A stretch of DNA of 42,543 bases. Origin: Bacilli bacterium. Lineage in GTDB: Bacteria; Bacillota_I; Bacilli_A; RF39; UBA660. Position 1 is the stretch's first letter; every line of letters starts with the position of its first letter. Of the stretch, positions 13,692 through 42,480 are shown in pieces. The position numbers and the translations under genes are program-made. The notes under the pieces were generated by a model that was not told where the DNA came from, did not search any database, and saw nothing but the letters and a program-made list of their open reading frames with translations. The stretch lies in assembly GCA_030531695.1 (NCBI GenBank), contig JAUNMV010000008.1, positions 1 through 42,543 of the forward strand, read 5' to 3'.

Positions 13692-14042
13692 TTAGTGTTT
13701 TGGTTTAAACACTAAGCTAAATATAAATGAAAATAATATAGCTGCAGTAATACCAGAAGCAGTTAAATCAAACATACCCATAAATAATCCCATAAATCCA
13801 TTTACTTCAGTACTCGCAAGTACCCCATGAGTTAAAGAATGACCAAAAGAAGTAATAGGTAGTAATGCACCTCCACCTACATAAGTAATAATCTTATCAT
13901 ATATACTAAATGTATCTAGAGCTGAACCAGCTACTACAAATAAACTAGTAATGTGTCCCGGAGAAAAATTTGTAGTATCTAGTATTATTTGAGCTATAGC
14001 ACATACTATTCCACAAAATAAGAATGATCTAATTAATAACAT
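13692..14042 (-). CDS. spoVAE: Stage V sporulation protein AE
   Basis: A membrane subunit of the SpoVA channel that moves Ca-dipicolinate into the forespore and out again at germination. The 116-aa sequence is almost all hydrophobic with about four helices and family features GHITSLFVVAGSALDTF and GHSLTHGVLASTEVNGFMG. The start overlaps the spoVAD stop as TAATG, so translation is coupled. It is last in the spoVAC-AD-AE unit and faces the RNHCP gene across a shared terminator. Confidence 0.93.
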   Translation of the reverse strand: MLLIRSFLFCGIVCAIAQIILDTTNFSPGHITSLFVVAGSALDTFSIYDKIITYVGGGALLPITSFGHSLTHGVLASTEVNGFMGLFMGMFDLTASGITAAILFSFIFSLVFKPKH

Positions 14043-15028
14043 TACACTACCTCCAAACTAATCGCATGAGCTATTGAATAAATATCATCACCTTGATGTA
14101 TAGTTGTAGGTGAAAATAAAGCACCTGTCGCAACTAATAATACTTTCTTTAACTTCTTTTTCTTTAATCTATTATAGATATATGAAAAATTTACTAAAGC
14201 ACTACATACTGGTCCAGAACCTCCTGCATGAACTTCTTTTTGTTTATCTAAATCATATAACATAACTCCACAATCATTATAATTATCTAGTATATAGCCA
14301 GCTTCTTTCATATAGTCAGTAATTATTTCTTTACCATATATTCCTAAATCTCCAGTAAGAATTAAATCATAATAATCTGGATTTCTTCCTGTTTCCGTAA
14401 AATGAGATATTAATGTTTCATATACGGCAGGAGCCATTACTCTACCCATATCATTCACATCATTTTGTTCATAATTAACTATTTTACCTAATGTAGCACA
14501 ATCAACTCTTATATTAGATTCTTCATTAGAAAGTAAACATGCTGCTCCTCCAGTAGAAGTAAATGTATTACTATCTTGTTTTGGAGCTCCATACTCAACT
14601 GGATTTCTATATTGTTTCTCTGCTCCCGAATTATGACTAGATACTTCTACTATCGCATTATCAATAAACTTACCTTCAATAAAATTAGAGGCAACAATCA
14701 TTCCTAATACACTAGTACTACAAGCACTATAAATTCCAATATAAGAATCTCCAACTCCATATGTACCATATGTAGAAGCAGTAATTTGATTAAGTAAATC
14801 TCCACCTACTACTAAATTAATATCTTCTCTATTTAAACCACTCTTTTTTAATAATATATTTATAGAATCCTTAACTAATTTCACTTCAGCTTTTTCAAAA
14901 GATTTTTCTCCAAAGTACATATCATCATAACTCTTATCAAAATAATTTCTTAATGGTCCTTCTTTTTCTACAGGTCCACATACCGTACTAGTTTCATTTA
15001 AATATACATTTTTATAATTAAAAGTCAT
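14042..15028 (-). CDS. spoVAD: Stage V sporulation protein AD
   Basis: A soluble, thiolase-fold subunit of the SpoVA complex. In Bacillus it binds dipicolinic acid. Visible features are GIYSACSTSVLGMIVASNF (the thiolase-like Cys region), TSTGGAACLLS, and the C-terminal HAGGSGPVCSALV and LLVATGALFSPTTIHQGD. 328 aa is the normal size. A strong AGGAGGA site precedes the ATG at 15028, one base after the spoVAC stop. It sits between spoVAC and spoVAE in the standard order. Confidence 0.95.
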   Translation of the reverse strand: MTFNYKNVYLNETSTVCGPVEKEGPLRNYFDKSYDDMYFGEKSFEKAEVKLVKDSINILLKKSGLNREDINLVVGGDLLNQITASTYGTYGVGDSYIGIYSACSTSVLGMIVASNFIEGKFIDNAIVEVSSHNSGAEKQYRNPVEYGAPKQDSNTFTSTGGAACLLSNEESNIRVDCATLGKIVNYEQNDVNDMGRVMAPAVYETLISHFTETGRNPDYYDLILTGDLGIYGKEIITDYMKEAGYILDNYNDCGVMLYDLDKQKEVHAGGSGPVCSALVNFSYIYNRLKKKKLKKVLLVATGALFSPTTIHQGDDIYSIAHAISLEVV

Positions 15029-15029
15029 A

Positions 15030-15467
15030 CTATCCTCCTATAAAGAATCTTACCATTCCGAATATCCAAGCAGATAAAACTCCATAAACAATAACAGTAC
15101 CAGCCAACTTGAATGCATTGGAACCAAAACCATATACAAATCCCTCTTTTCTATAATCCATAAAAGCACTAGTCATAGAATGTGCAAAACCAGTAATAGG
15201 TATAATTAATCCACTCCTACAAAACATTACTAACTTATCGAAAAATCCTAAAGCAGTAAATAAAGAAGCTATAAATATAAATATTAAAATCATATCCATA
15301 GAAGCAATCTGTCTAGACATATTAAAATAACTCATTAATATTTCTATTATTCCTTCTCCCAGTAAACCTACAAATCCTCCAGTAATAAATGCAGTAATAG
15401 TATTTCTAATTAAATGTCTATTAACCTTATATTGATCTGCAATTTCCTCATACTTAATACTTTTCAT
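15030..15467 (-). CDS. spoVAC: Stage V sporulation protein AC
   Basis: A membrane subunit of the SpoVA channel. In Bacillus it is the mechanosensitive part. Features are a soluble N-terminus (MKSIKYEEIADQYKVNRHLI), four hydrophobic segments and GFAHSMTSAFMDYRKEGFVYGFGSNAF-type loops (read as GFAHSMTSAFMDY then GFVYGFGSNAFKLAG). The ATG at 15467 is chosen because GGTGAT lies right before it. The in-frame codon at 15479 has no binding site. It follows the sigma gene after a terminator. spoVAA and spoVAB are not present here. Confidence 0.93.
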   Translation of the reverse strand: MKSIKYEEIADQYKVNRHLIRNTITAFITGGFVGLLGEGIIEILMSYFNMSRQIASMDMILIFIFIASLFTALGFFDKLVMFCRSGLIIPITGFAHSMTSAFMDYRKEGFVYGFGSNAFKLAGTVIVYGVLSAWIFGMVRFFIGG

Positions 15468-15498
15468 AATTATCACCATTAATAGTTATGCACAAAAA

Positions 15499-15520
15499 AA
15501 CTTAAGAATATTCTTAAGTT
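15499..15520 (-). terminator. Terminator between the sigma factor gene and spoVAC
   Basis: A perfect palindrome, AACTTAAGAAT joined to ATTCTTAAGTT. On the minus strand it is followed by TTTTTTTG. It overlaps the stop codon of the sigma gene. Confidence 0.7.
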
Positions 15521-16151
15521 ATAATCTTTTTTTTAATTTTTCTAATATTTTACTTTCCTTTCTAGATATTTGTACCTGACTAATACCAGTTTTCTTACTT
15601 ATTTCTGTCTGCGTTAAATCTTCATAATACCTTTCTCTTATTAATTGTTTTTCTTCTGGATTTAGTCTTTTTAGTTCCTCCTTAAGATCAATTAATTCTT
15701 CCTTAATAGTATCTTTTTCACTTATTAAATTATACATATTATTACTATCATCATACGAGTAATCTAGACTTTGTACATCTTGTGTCGCAATTAATACTTC
15801 ATTTATTTTATCTTCTTCTATATCTAAGAATAAAGATAATTCTAAAGTTGTAGGGTTTCTACCTAATTTTTGTATCATTATATCAGTAGCTTTATTTATA
15901 CTTTTATTTAATCTAATTATATCTTTACTTAATTTTAAAGATTTACTCTCACGAATATATTTAGTAATTTCTCCTAATATATAATAATAAGCATAAGTAG
16001 AAAATTTAACGTCTAAATCACTATTAAAATTATTTTTAGCTTGTATTAGTCCAATCATCCCCACTTGATATAAATCTTCCTCATCATATTTATGTCCATA
16101 TTTATGAACTATACTATAGACTAAATTTTCATACTCTAATACTCCTTCTAT
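15519..16151 (-). CDS. Sporulation sigma factor, SigF/SigG family, apparent AUA start
   Basis: A sigma-70-family factor that directs RNA polymerase to forespore genes. Region 2 is readable from YENLVYSIVHKYGH through EEDLYQVGMIGLIQA and KFSTYAYYYILGEITKYIRE. Region 4 ends PEEKQLIRERYYEDLTQTE and ISKKTGISQVQISRKE, the SigF/SigG signature. Position directly before spoVA matches sigF of Bacillus, so SigF is favoured, but spoIIAA and spoIIAB are missing. Start: no ATG, GTG or TTG lies in frame before the GTG at 16064, which would cut off region 2.1. A strong GGAAGGAGG site at 16168-16160 stands 8 bases before an in-frame ATA at 16151-16149, and an in-frame stop lies further up. An AUA start is therefore inferred, giving 210 aa. 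Confidence 0.88.
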   Translation of the reverse strand: MEGVLEYENLVYSIVHKYGHKYDEEDLYQVGMIGLIQAKNNFNSDLDVKFSTYAYYYILGEITKYIRESKSLKLSKDIIRLNKSINKATDIMIQKLGRNPTTLELSLFLDIEEDKINEVLIATQDVQSLDYSYDDSNNMYNLISEKDTIKEELIDLKEELKRLNPEEKQLIRERYYEDLTQTEISKKTGISQVQISRKESKILEKLKKRL

Positions 16152-23107: not shown

Positions 23108-23135
23108 ATAATCATCCTCCATAATATCCAAAAAT

Positions 23136-23144
23136 ATTTTATCA
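23136..23144 (-). promoter_or_regulatory. tex promoter, extended -10 (TGATAAAAT)
   Basis: TGA-TAAAAT on the minus strand. A second possible promoter just upstream has TTGTCA (23186-23181) with TATATA at 18 bases. Confidence 0.4.
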
Positions 23145-23190
23145 TATAGATTATTTTATATATATAAATTTAACTATTTTTGACAAGAAA

Positions 23191-23212
23191 AAACTTATGT
23201 TTCCATAAGTTT
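23191..23212 (-). terminator. Terminator of the small HTH gene
   Basis: Arms AAACTTATG (23191-23199) and CATAAGTTT (23204-23212) with a GAAA loop on the minus strand, followed by TTTCTTG. Confidence 0.75.
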
Positions 23213-23214
23213 TA

Positions 23215-23484
23215 TTACATATTTTTTCTTTTTCTGATTTTTTCAACATCAGATAGACTAACTCTAGTAATATAAGCTATTTCTTTATCAGAATAATCTT
23301 CATCAATCATTCTTTCTGCCATCTCTTCTCTAACAGTTATTTCTGCAATCTTTTGACTAATCTGATCAAGTAAACTATTTAATTCTCCATCTATAGTTGT
23401 AGTATTAATTAATTTCTTTAAACCTTCTACTTTATCCTCATAAGATAGTTTATCGATATCTCTAATCTTTATATCTTTCCCCAT
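23215..23484 (-). CDS. Small helix-turn-helix protein, possible autoregulator
   Basis: An 89-aa, all-helical, soluble protein. The C-terminal part EEMAERMIDEDYSDKEIAYI followed by TRVSLSDVEKIRKRK reads as a helix-turn-helix. It resembles both TrpR-like repressors and the C-terminal helices of Rpn-type PD-(D/E)XK proteins, and the sequence alone does not decide between them. The N-terminal half is helical and charged, suitable for dimer formation. Its promoter (23508-23536) contains the palindrome CTCTAGTTAACTAGAG exactly between -35 and -10, plus a second half-site near the transcription start, which suggests the protein controls its own gene. A strong AGGAGGGG site precedes the ATG. It is a single-gene unit between two terminators. 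Confidence 0.65.
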   Translation of the reverse strand: MGKDIKIRDIDKLSYEDKVEGLKKLINTTTIDGELNSLLDQISQKIAEITVREEMAERMIDEDYSDKEIAYITRVSLSDVEKIRKRKNM

Positions 23485-23497
23485 ATTATCCCCTCCT

Positions 23498-23530
23498 TTA
23501 ACTAGACTTTATCACTCTAGTTAACTAGAG
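23498..23530 (-). promoter_or_regulatory. Palindromic operator CTCTAGTTAACTAGAG with an extra half-site
   Basis: A perfect 16-base palindrome (23515-23530) lies between -35 and -10. The half-site TTAACTAGA (23521-23529) is repeated exactly at 23498-23506, near the transcription start. The core CTAGTTAACTAG is identical to the core of the E. coli trp operator as known from the literature. Repression of the gene starting at 23484 is inferred. Confidence 0.6.
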
Positions 23531-23536
23531 AGTCAA
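23508..23536 (-). promoter_or_regulatory. Promoter of the small HTH gene
   Basis: Minus strand: -35 TTGACT (23536-23531), 17-base spacer, -10 GATAAA (23513-23508). The spacer is filled by the palindrome 23515-23530. Confidence 0.65.
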
Positions 23537-23541
23537 GAAAA

Positions 23542-23560
23542 AAAGAGCTATGAGCTCTTT
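23542..23560 (-). terminator. Terminator of the gene ending at 23548 and of the long priA-rpe cluster
   Basis: Arms AAAGAGCT (23542-23549) and AGCTCTTT (23553-23560) with a 3-base loop, followed by TTTTCTTGAC on the minus strand. The TTGACT -35 of the next promoter starts right after the T-run. Confidence 0.75.
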
Positions 23561-40233: not shown

Positions 40234-42480
40234 CTAAATTGGATATAGATACATTGCTGAAGACCAACGTGTATTACTATAACAATCTCCCCATCCAGAT
40301 ACATTCCAAGAACTAGAAGAGCCTAAATAACAAGCACAATGATCATACCAACGATCTCTACCACTATGTAGTGTATATCTCCATGTATCAGGTGGTCTCA
40401 TCCAATATGGTCTAACTTTACCATAGTCAGCCCAATCCCAAGTACCAATCCAACATGAATCACCAGTCTCACGACCTCTTATCCAGATATATCCTCCACC
40501 ATCATAAGCCCATGCATTCCAGTCATTATCAGCTTGGAAAGTAGCTCCATCACGCATTGTGAATGAAACTCCACATCCTCTAGAAGGACATTCTCTCATT
40601 GTTAAACCAGCATGATCTGAATAATCAGCAGTATTACTAACGTGGAATCTCTTATTAGGATCAGTCAATGTAATAACAGCATATAAATCTATAGAATTAC
40701 TTAGAGAAATTACTTGTCCCTCAGAGAAATCTTTCCATGAATGTCCAGGATTCCAATTCCATCCTTGATAAGATAATACCCAATCATAATTATAAGAAGG
40801 ACTAGTATCACTCCATCTATTTAATCTAGGGATAGAATCAACTGTTATATTACATGTAGACTCTTGATTCCATACATAGCATGTTTCTCCATCTGTCCAG
40901 TCACCAAACCATTCACCTTTATCACGGTGATAACGTATTGTATAACCACTATTCTTCTTCCAGATAGCATACAAAGTCTTAGGAGAATTAGCAGTATACC
41001 TAGTACCATAACCAGCATCATGAGAACTAGCATTTTCATTCCATCCAACAAATGTATAACCATCTCTTGTAGGTTTAGGTAAATCTAATGGTTGTCCATG
41101 AGTTTTCTTTAATACCTCATAATAACCAGTACCATTACCACCTAAAACAACATCATAAGTAACAGACTTCCATTGAGCATAAGCAGTAAATGTCTTATTC
41201 TCTAAAGTCATATTTGTTATATTAGCACCAGCATTATAATTATTAGAATCAATTTTCCATCCAGTAAATTCATAATCTTGTCTGCTAAAATTATTATTAG
41301 CTAAATTACAAGTAAATCCATAATAACAAGTAGTAGAAGCTACACTACCATTTCCACCATTTGCATTATAATTAATAACATATTTATTTGAAACAGATAC
41401 TTGTACAGACTTAGTAGTACAATTTTCAGCTGTATCACATAGTTTAATAGAAGCATATCTAACTCCACTAGCAGTTAAAGTATGATTAGTTATAGTATTA
41501 AAAGTACCAGAACCACCATTCAAAGTAGTATCTAAAGTACCTTTACCAGACTTATTCCATGACCATACTTCCTTAGCAATACCAACATTATCAGTACTTC
41601 TAGTAAAATCAAAATAATATCCATAAGTCTTCCAATCATTAATTACTATATTACCGTTATTAGCACTAGCTAAAACTCCACCAGTCTTATTACCTCCACT
41701 TTCTTTATAAGCATCAATATTAACAATAGGAGCAGTATTATCTAACTTAAATTCATCACTTTGTACTGCATCTGTTGAAGGCATACTAATCTCATTAGTT
41801 AACTCAATAGGAGTTACAACCAATCTAATCTTTGCATTCATTCCAGTTGGAGTATCAACATTTAAAGATAAACTTTCAGCTACACTATTCTTAAAATTAT
41901 GAGTAACTTCAGTACCTATAGGAGTACCATCAACATAAAACCATTGATATTTAATCTTAGCATTTGGACTAATTCCAAACATATCGTCTATATTAATAGT
42001 TGCAGTTGCCTTCTTCTTCCAATTAGTACCATTAGGAGTAAAAGTAATTCTAGGACCAGAATCAGAAATAGATCCCTCACATAAATTAAAATTAATATCT
42101 GCAATATTATCACTTGTAGGAAAGAATGTTTCATAACTATAATTATCATTTACTTTTTTAACACGTACAAAAATCTTATCAGTAATAATATTTTGTTTAG
42201 AAAAATCTAACTCATCAATAACTTTATTAGATACCAAAGTATTATAGTAAATATCTACACAACCTACAGTTTGATACCCAAATAAATCAAGATCATGTGC
42301 ATCAGTATAAACCTTAGCTCCACTCTCAATAGTATTCTCATAAACATTTAACTTTTTATTATTTAGTTGACTAGAAACAGCGCTTATAACTGGTAATGCT
42401 ATTACAGTAACAATACCTAATACAGTAATAGTTACAAGCATCTCTACTAAAGTAAAACCTTTTTGTTTTCTCATCATCAC
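40234..42480 (-). CDS. Large prepilin-like surface protein A with SH3-like tip
   Basis: About 748 aa, the largest of the three. The prepilin signal reads QKGFTLVEMLVTITVLGIVT with Phe+1 and Glu+5. The head has GCVDIYYNTLV and FNLC. Ig-like units follow, as in pilin B. InlB-type repeats: YVINYNANGGNGS to AYAQWK, then YDVVLGGNGTGYYEV to LYAIWKK, then a Trp-rich third unit (GYTIRYHRDKGEWFGDW). The tip is different: LTMRECPSRGCGVSF, GATFQADNDWNAWAYDGGGY, IWIRG looks like a bacterial SH3 domain, followed by a Trp/Cys-rich end (DHCACYLGSSSSW). The start may be GTG 42480 or ATG 42477 or 42474, all close to AGGGTGAT; GTG is listed. The reading from 42513 starts before the binding site. Confidence 0.78.
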   Translation of the reverse strand: MMMRKQKGFTLVEMLVTITVLGIVTVIALPVISAVSSQLNNKKLNVYENTIESGAKVYTDAHDLDLFGYQTVGCVDIYYNTLVSNKVIDELDFSKQNIITDKIFVRVKKVNDNYSYETFFPTSDNIADINFNLCEGSISDSGPRITFTPNGTNWKKKATATINIDDMFGISPNAKIKYQWFYVDGTPIGTEVTHNFKNSVAESLSLNVDTPTGMNAKIRLVVTPIELTNEISMPSTDAVQSDEFKLDNTAPIVNIDAYKESGGNKTGGVLASANNGNIVINDWKTYGYYFDFTRSTDNVGIAKEVWSWNKSGKGTLDTTLNGGSGTFNTITNHTLTASGVRYASIKLCDTAENCTTKSVQVSVSNKYVINYNANGGNGSVASTTCYYGFTCNLANNNFSRQDYEFTGWKIDSNNYNAGANITNMTLENKTFTAYAQWKSVTYDVVLGGNGTGYYEVLKKTHGQPLDLPKPTRDGYTFVGWNENASSHDAGYGTRYTANSPKTLYAIWKKNSGYTIRYHRDKGEWFGDWTDGETCYVWNQESTCNITVDSIPRLNRWSDTSPSYNYDWVLSYQGWNWNPGHSWKDFSEGQVISLSNSIDLYAVITLTDPNKRFHVSNTADYSDHAGLTMRECPSRGCGVSFTMRDGATFQADNDWNAWAYDGGGYIWIRGRETGDSCWIGTWDWADYGKVRPYWMRPPDTWRYTLHSGRDRWYDHCACYLGSSSSWNVSGWGDCYSNTRWSSAMYLYPI
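41396..41638 (-). repeat. Segment of pilin A nearly identical to a segment of pilin B
   Basis: The counterpart of 38585-38825. The corresponding part of pilin C (about 36120-36420) is clearly more diverged. Confidence 0.6.

Follow-up and report, generated by a model that had tools for sequence, protein, structure and literature searches.

A candidate MerR-type operator-promoter ahead of a species-specific orphan gene in a small Bacilli genome

Which protein reads a perfect palindrome that has a 12-bp core identical to E. coli trpO and that lies in the promoter of a small helix-turn-helix (HTH)-like gene in a Bacilli bacterium? The 16-bp palindrome, CTCTAGTTAACTAGAG (23515–23530, strandless), occurs in a window of 42,543 nucleotides, the whole stretch of DNA analysed (contig JAUNMV010000008.1, here C71), from an assembly of 1.46 Mb in 84 contigs that is 80.85% complete. 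A first-pass annotation had proposed that the gene behind the palindrome encodes an autoregulated repressor of TrpR-like or Rpn-tail type.

On the minus strand the unit reads CTTTTTTTC TTGACT CTCTAGTTAACTAGAGTGA TAAAGT CTAGTTAA AGGAGG GGATAAT ATG. The −35 box TTGACT (23531–23536, minus strand; 5/6 match) is followed by a 19-bp spacer, CTCTAGTTAACTAGAGTGA (23512–23530, minus strand), and a −10 box TAAAGT (23506–23511, minus strand; 4/6, with A2 and T6 kept), and the palindrome, matched at 8/8 pairs, fills the first 16 bases of this spacer. Its location between TTGACT and GATAAA, as first annotated, was confirmed, with a single T separating CTCTAGTTAACTAGAG from GATAAA on the minus strand. The 17-bp spacer proposed with it stood in part: the alternative −10 box GATAAA (23508–23513, minus strand) is present but lacks the final T, and the 19-bp reading gives TAAAGT. 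Neither version of the −10 box is strong (4/6 each), so a 17-bp promoter with a plain repressor is still conceivable. A promoter scan limited to spacers of 16–18 bp and to boxes with T6 returned neither −10 reading. The reported recurrence of the half-site was also confirmed, TTAACTAGA being found at 23521–23529 and, 23 bases away, at 23498–23506, where the extra copy TCTAGTTAA (minus strand) lies over the putative transcription start. We retain the earlier reading of the palindrome as a putative protein-binding operator within the promoter spacer.

A ribosome binding site, AGGAGG (23492–23497, minus strand), precedes the gene, an orphan encoding 89 aa (23215–23484, minus strand), and a terminator hairpin, AAAACTTATG-GAAA-CATAAGTTTT with a T run (23190–23213, minus strand; −9.3 kcal/mol, z −3.5), follows it. 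A terminator of the upstream 314-aa gene (23542–23560, minus strand) makes the 89-aa gene a separate transcription unit. Codon bias of the 89-aa frame was 0.79 bits per codon, the other same-strand frames giving −0.21 and 0.08 and other genes a median of 0.74. An RNA attenuator was considered and rejected, since the short leader (23470–23502) was predicted to be unfolded (0 kcal/mol).

A search for the palindrome in other promoters of the genome, as the first-pass annotation had suggested, found a second one, on contig C17, upstream of a unit encoding a MerR-family protein. The number of sites within two mismatches of TCTAGTTAACTAGA was in itself unremarkable (13 in the genome and 13 for the reversed control, hence no excess), and the exact palindrome core had one genome occurrence at up to one mismatch. 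Flanks were inspected for 11 of the 13 sites (10 loci and window position 42362; the other two lie one each on C66 and C79), and among these TTGAC stood directly ahead, in register, only at the window site and at C17:2226–2239. The chance of one such TTGAC coincidence among the other sites is about 0.6%, at 0.00028 TTGAC per base. Among the 11 sites with flanks, the element was present in two promoters of the genome, and the link to MerR came to light only through the symmetric variant of the palindrome ahead of a MerR gene.

The C17 promoter reads TTGACT CTCCAGTTAACTGGAATGA TATCGT, with an identical −35 box and again a 19-bp spacer, and shares 26 of 31 bases with the window promoter. The 14-base core differs in one respect only, C-G standing in both arms in place of a T-A pair, a symmetric change that keeps the palindrome in the C17 twin (7/8 pairs in the first 16 bases). 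Overall, the two operators differ at this one symmetric pair and at one outer base. From the start of the −35 box to the start codon there are 52–53 bases in both units. The extra half-site near the transcription start is absent from the twin, which makes its role doubtful.

The C17 promoter is followed by a 49-aa open reading frame (L113 1322–1468, G000:C17) and then by the gene for a 128-aa MerR-family protein (L113 898–1281, G000:C17), which matched MerR_1 (PF13411) with E = 1.7e-19 and PF00376 with E = 1.9e-15; its nearest NCBIfam models were ZntR and CueR, far under their cut-offs. No family was found for the 49-aa product in scans of its last 48 residues. A KTLG.H motif is common to the end of the 49-aa frame (VYMKTLGRHPLANS) and the C-terminus of the MerR protein (VKVKTLGGHNEREYS), which presumably binds the signal. 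In a congener, the stretch coding for a relative of the T4SS-type gene adjacent to the C17 MerR gene contained no visible MerR gene and no AGTTAACT.

The arrangement of both promoters resembles that of known MerR-class promoters. Regulators of this class bind palindromes in spacers of 19–20 bp (PMC1526738, PMC9909328) and activate by distorting the over-long spacer (PMC1526738, PMC9909328, PMC11049809); in Tn501 mer, the palindrome lies at −31 to −16 in a spacer of −31 to −13 (PMC11049809). The window palindrome takes the same place, positions −31 to −16, the first 16 bases of the 19-bp spacer. The E. coli zntA promoter, controlled by ZntR, reads TTGACTCTGGAGTCGACTCCAGAGTGTATCCT and has TTGACTCT followed by a palindrome; the window promoter also starts with TTGACTCT, and 16 of the first 22 bases agree. 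In E. coli soxS, controlled by SoxR, CCTCAAGTTAACTTGAGG is found, and AAGTTAACTT lies at the centre. The mer, zntA and soxS promoters thus share with the window a palindrome in a 19–20 bp spacer behind the −35 box. They differ from it in their targets, which are a transporter, detoxification enzyme or regulator rather than an orphan 89-aa protein, and in that the likely regulator gene of the window promoter sits on another contig.

The same element was met on plasmids. Searches with the two 42-base promoters (blastn) gave 13 and 24 plasmid records, some of them in both lists; most of the matches listed came from cyanobacteria, and each was weak on its own (E = 0.04 to 7). Nine records were opened, seven from the first list and two from the second, and TTGACTCTC with a palindrome or near-palindrome was present in eight; the ninth, from a Halobacillus plasmid, was without TTGAC. 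The next gene after the element encodes a MerR-family protein in L125 and L130, and in L126 the MerR gene carries its own copy of the element. Several other copies precede copper- or redox-type genes: L132 has a gene for a multicopper oxidase there, L127 one for a DUF305 protein and L124 one for a thioredoxin. In L128 the element precedes a gene for a hypothetical protein, and in L131 there is no annotated gene on that strand. A close parallel is a plasmid of Calothrix sp. NIES-4105 (AP018291.1, L130), in which TTGACTCTCCAGTTAACTGGAGAGT lies immediately before the MerR gene and 20 of the first 22 bases equal those of the window; it differs in having a 20-bp spacer to TAAAAT and an adjoining gene for a cation-transporting ATPase. 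Judged by sequence, the plasmid element is part of MerR-type control, which on the plasmids acts mostly on metal genes. The C17 MerR protein has only C90, C104, H109 and H118 as Cys and His residues, so a metal signal here does not follow from the likeness to plasmids. Two viral contigs contain the window 16-mer, but their ORF lists show no comparable gene; two contain a TTGACTCT-type pattern, and no MerR gene was seen on reading their lists by eye. L054 has a 22/31 promoter match within an Rpn gene, which was taken as chance.

From these comparisons, the window site is probably a MerR-type operator-promoter ahead of a species-specific orphan gene, itself a probable target of the C17 MerR protein; which regulator acts here is less certain than the rest of this reading. 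A MerR-family dimer, most likely of the 128-aa protein encoded on C17, would bind the palindrome in the 19-bp spacer between TTGACT and TAAAGT. In the absence of its signal, the dimer would keep the promoter in an inactive shape; with signal, it would bend and untwist the spacer such that RNA polymerase could use both boxes, and the promoter thus made usable would switch on the 89-aa gene. Since the MerR operon on C17 has nearly the same promoter, the two units would form a small regulon. The trp-operator core in a small Bacilli genome, which makes a TrpR reading tempting, would then be explained by a MerR-type promoter. The mechanism would be an ordinary one, MerR proteins being a widespread type of stress switch in bacteria, and what is unusual is the target. 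If the reading is correct, this small genome has a MerR regulon of two units, one of which encodes an orphan HTH-like protein.

The operator could instead be read by another MerR-family regulator of the same genome, which we consider unlikely. The window and C17 operators are not identical, MerR relatives may discriminate changes such as the one symmetric pair and one outer base that separate them, and among the MerR genes of the genome the comparison covered C17 alone. Against this, no MerR gene other than that of C17 was seen next to a matching operator.

Less probable still is the first-pass proposal of autoregulation, in the form that the 89-aa protein is a distant TrpR/HisR-like HTH protein and represses its own gene by binding the palindrome in the promoter. 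In its favour, the operator lies immediately ahead of the gene and has the same 12-bp core as E. coli trpO; autoregulation is also common for HisR, which belongs to the TrpR family of repressors (PMC9413887). The structural comparisons lean the same way. An AlphaFold2 model from the single sequence (mean pLDDT 85.3) has helices at residues 7–12, 15–28, 33–61, 66–73 and 77–87, the last three of which form the C-terminal HTH-like domain (residues ~33–87), in agreement with the HTH noted earlier. With this single-sequence model, the first five rows of a Foldseek search of the PDB were TrpR/HisR-type (E = 1.0–1.7), as were all of the first 12 rows in VIA-align (Z = 6.5–7.4), with 3frw at Z = 7.4 and an rmsd of 0.7 over 47 residues. 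The fold match thus ranks first yet falls under the aligner's threshold for meaning, Z values below 8 possibly reflecting, by its own note, only a common arrangement. The predicted HTH core superposes closely on those of TrpR and HisR (YerC). The 89-aa protein presumably ends ahead of TrpR helix F.

Sequence and context argue against such a repressor. The Trp_repressor profile (PF01371) gave no match to the 89-aa protein at E ≤ 10, a genome-wide search with it at E ≤ 1 hit two other places and not this gene, and BLASTP against E. coli TrpR gave no alignment at E ≤ 100, so that no sequence relationship to TrpR or HisR was detected. In a helix-by-helix reading by eye, 0/6 of the TrpR DNA-contact residues were identical, and two were acidic (D79, E81). 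The half-sites differ too: those of TrpR are GNACT, 8 bp apart, and the HisR motif is cacTTTA-6-TAAAgtg (PMC9413887), while the window half-site, TCTCT, agrees with neither GNACT nor the Firmicute HisR motif, and a HisR operator was rejected for that difference. The description of CTAGTTAACTAG as the core of TrpR operators was too broad; it holds for the E. coli trp promoter, but a 7-kb trpR region was without the sequence at up to two mismatches. trpA (PF00290), the only trp gene tested, was found in 0/6 genomes of the genus, with 14/14 controls positive and the genome itself 80.85% complete. Across the order, PF01371 matched at E ≤ 0.001 in 49 of 193 genomes, one of them over the cut-off, and the frames listed were mostly of 230–270 aa, not TrpR-sized. 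A TrpR-like regulator was therefore not supported, by profile, half-sites or trpA. With the same operator-promoter ahead of the C17 MerR gene, and the MerR geometry, the 89-aa gene is more likely a MerR target than autoregulated, and TrpR autoregulation was dropped as the best reading.

Least probable is that an AT-rich palindrome arose by chance in an ordinary 17-bp promoter with no regulator: about 2.6 perfect 16-bp palindromes are expected per window and 12.8% of simulated intergenic sets hold at least one, against which stand the twin promoter with its symmetric change, the G+C-rich arms and the match to the MerR-class element of plasmids. The window contained four perfect palindromes of at least 16 bp, compared with 2.6 (sd 1.7) in shuffles. 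In Markov simulations of the 32 intergenic pieces, a perfect 16-bp palindrome with at least six G/C was obtained in 0.4% of runs, and one accompanied in its piece by a further 9-base half-site in 0.27%, both criteria having been set after the site was seen. The palindrome alone is not beyond chance in such AT-rich DNA; its composition and the C17 twin are.

Turning to the 89-aa protein itself, no match above noise was found in Pfam, NCBIfam, PHROGs or PADLOC, nor any match among phages. Against plasmids there was one match (45% over 40 residues, E = 0.02), annotated as an HTH regulator. The nearest match in named genomes, 29 residues of a Gastranaerophilales MAG protein that we take to be CarB-like, was regarded as chance. 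A search with PF12784 matched nothing, controls included, and is uninformative.

The second half of the first-pass proposal, a protein of Rpn-tail type, had weak support from sequence. In an order-wide protein search, 14 other genomes of 385 had matches at E ≤ 0.01, among them Rpn genes or tails (L004, L015, L017, L021 and L023), with the C-terminus of the 89-aa protein aligning to the Rpn tails; the other matches, identified in part, were mixed, and many aligned to the helical N-terminal half. A profile was built from 25 tails found by TIGR01784 independently of the 89-aa protein. It scored the protein at 14.8 bits (E = 0.003), the best of 2000 shuffles reaching 12.4; a shorter tail core gave 12.7 bits vs 9.0. 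Only nine control ORFs scored above 14.8 bits (32.7–80.3 bits), all at Rpn loci and presumed, unchecked, to be further Rpn copies. TIGR01784 itself gave no match to the 89-aa protein, and the resemblance of its C-terminus to Rpn tails is suggestive only.

The small C-terminal Rpn product of E. coli, RpnA-S, is reported to form a dimer; its three-helix bundle starts with a long helix and is related to HTH motifs (PMC10327210). To that extent the 89-aa protein is similar, being small, with a long first helix and a three-helix HTH-like bundle. Unlike RpnA-S, it is without four-residue repeats and has its own promoter, and no Rpn nuclease was found in its genome: full-length Rpn had 0 matches in the incomplete assembly (G000) and was present in 62 of 145 family genomes and in congener G131. 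The RpnA-S structure (7th0) was matched by the Rpn profile and was absent among the fold rows listed by Foldseek and VIA-align. It is a long shot that the protein is a stand-alone, species-specific, MerR-driven HTH-like protein derived from an Rpn tail. It would then regulate other genes at a second level, or serve as an antitoxin or blocker when Rpn-type nucleases enter the cell: an Rpn-derived antitoxin parted from its toxin and placed under stress control.

Stand-alone Rpn tails of 82 and 77 aa adjoin full or partial Rpn genes elsewhere (L021 1495–2414, L015 513–1626) and look like loose antitoxin-type copies. Many contigs of family genomes, and also L059–L070, start or stop within an Rpn gene. 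Assemblies seem to break at such genes, which makes it unreliable to count short Rpn tails where contigs end.

The 89-aa gene was found in no other genome of the genus (six genomes; the only strong match was to itself). It occupies a variable spot, the interval between the 314-aa gene and tex (window 23132–23547). At this place upstream of tex, L009 has a different and longer ORF whose N-terminus is hydrophobic, L013 has another ORF and L011 has none; the contigs of L010 and L012 end before the interval can be read.

Elsewhere in the window (13692–16064), SpoVAC/SpoVAEB-like and SpoVAD genes lie behind a gene for a 181-aa sigma-70-type factor (Pfam), which places sporulation genes in a 1.46-Mb genome. 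Between the sigma gene and the SpoVAC-like gene is a perfect 22-bp palindrome, AACTTAAGAATATTCTTAAGTT (15499–15520), which may be a terminator or an operator.
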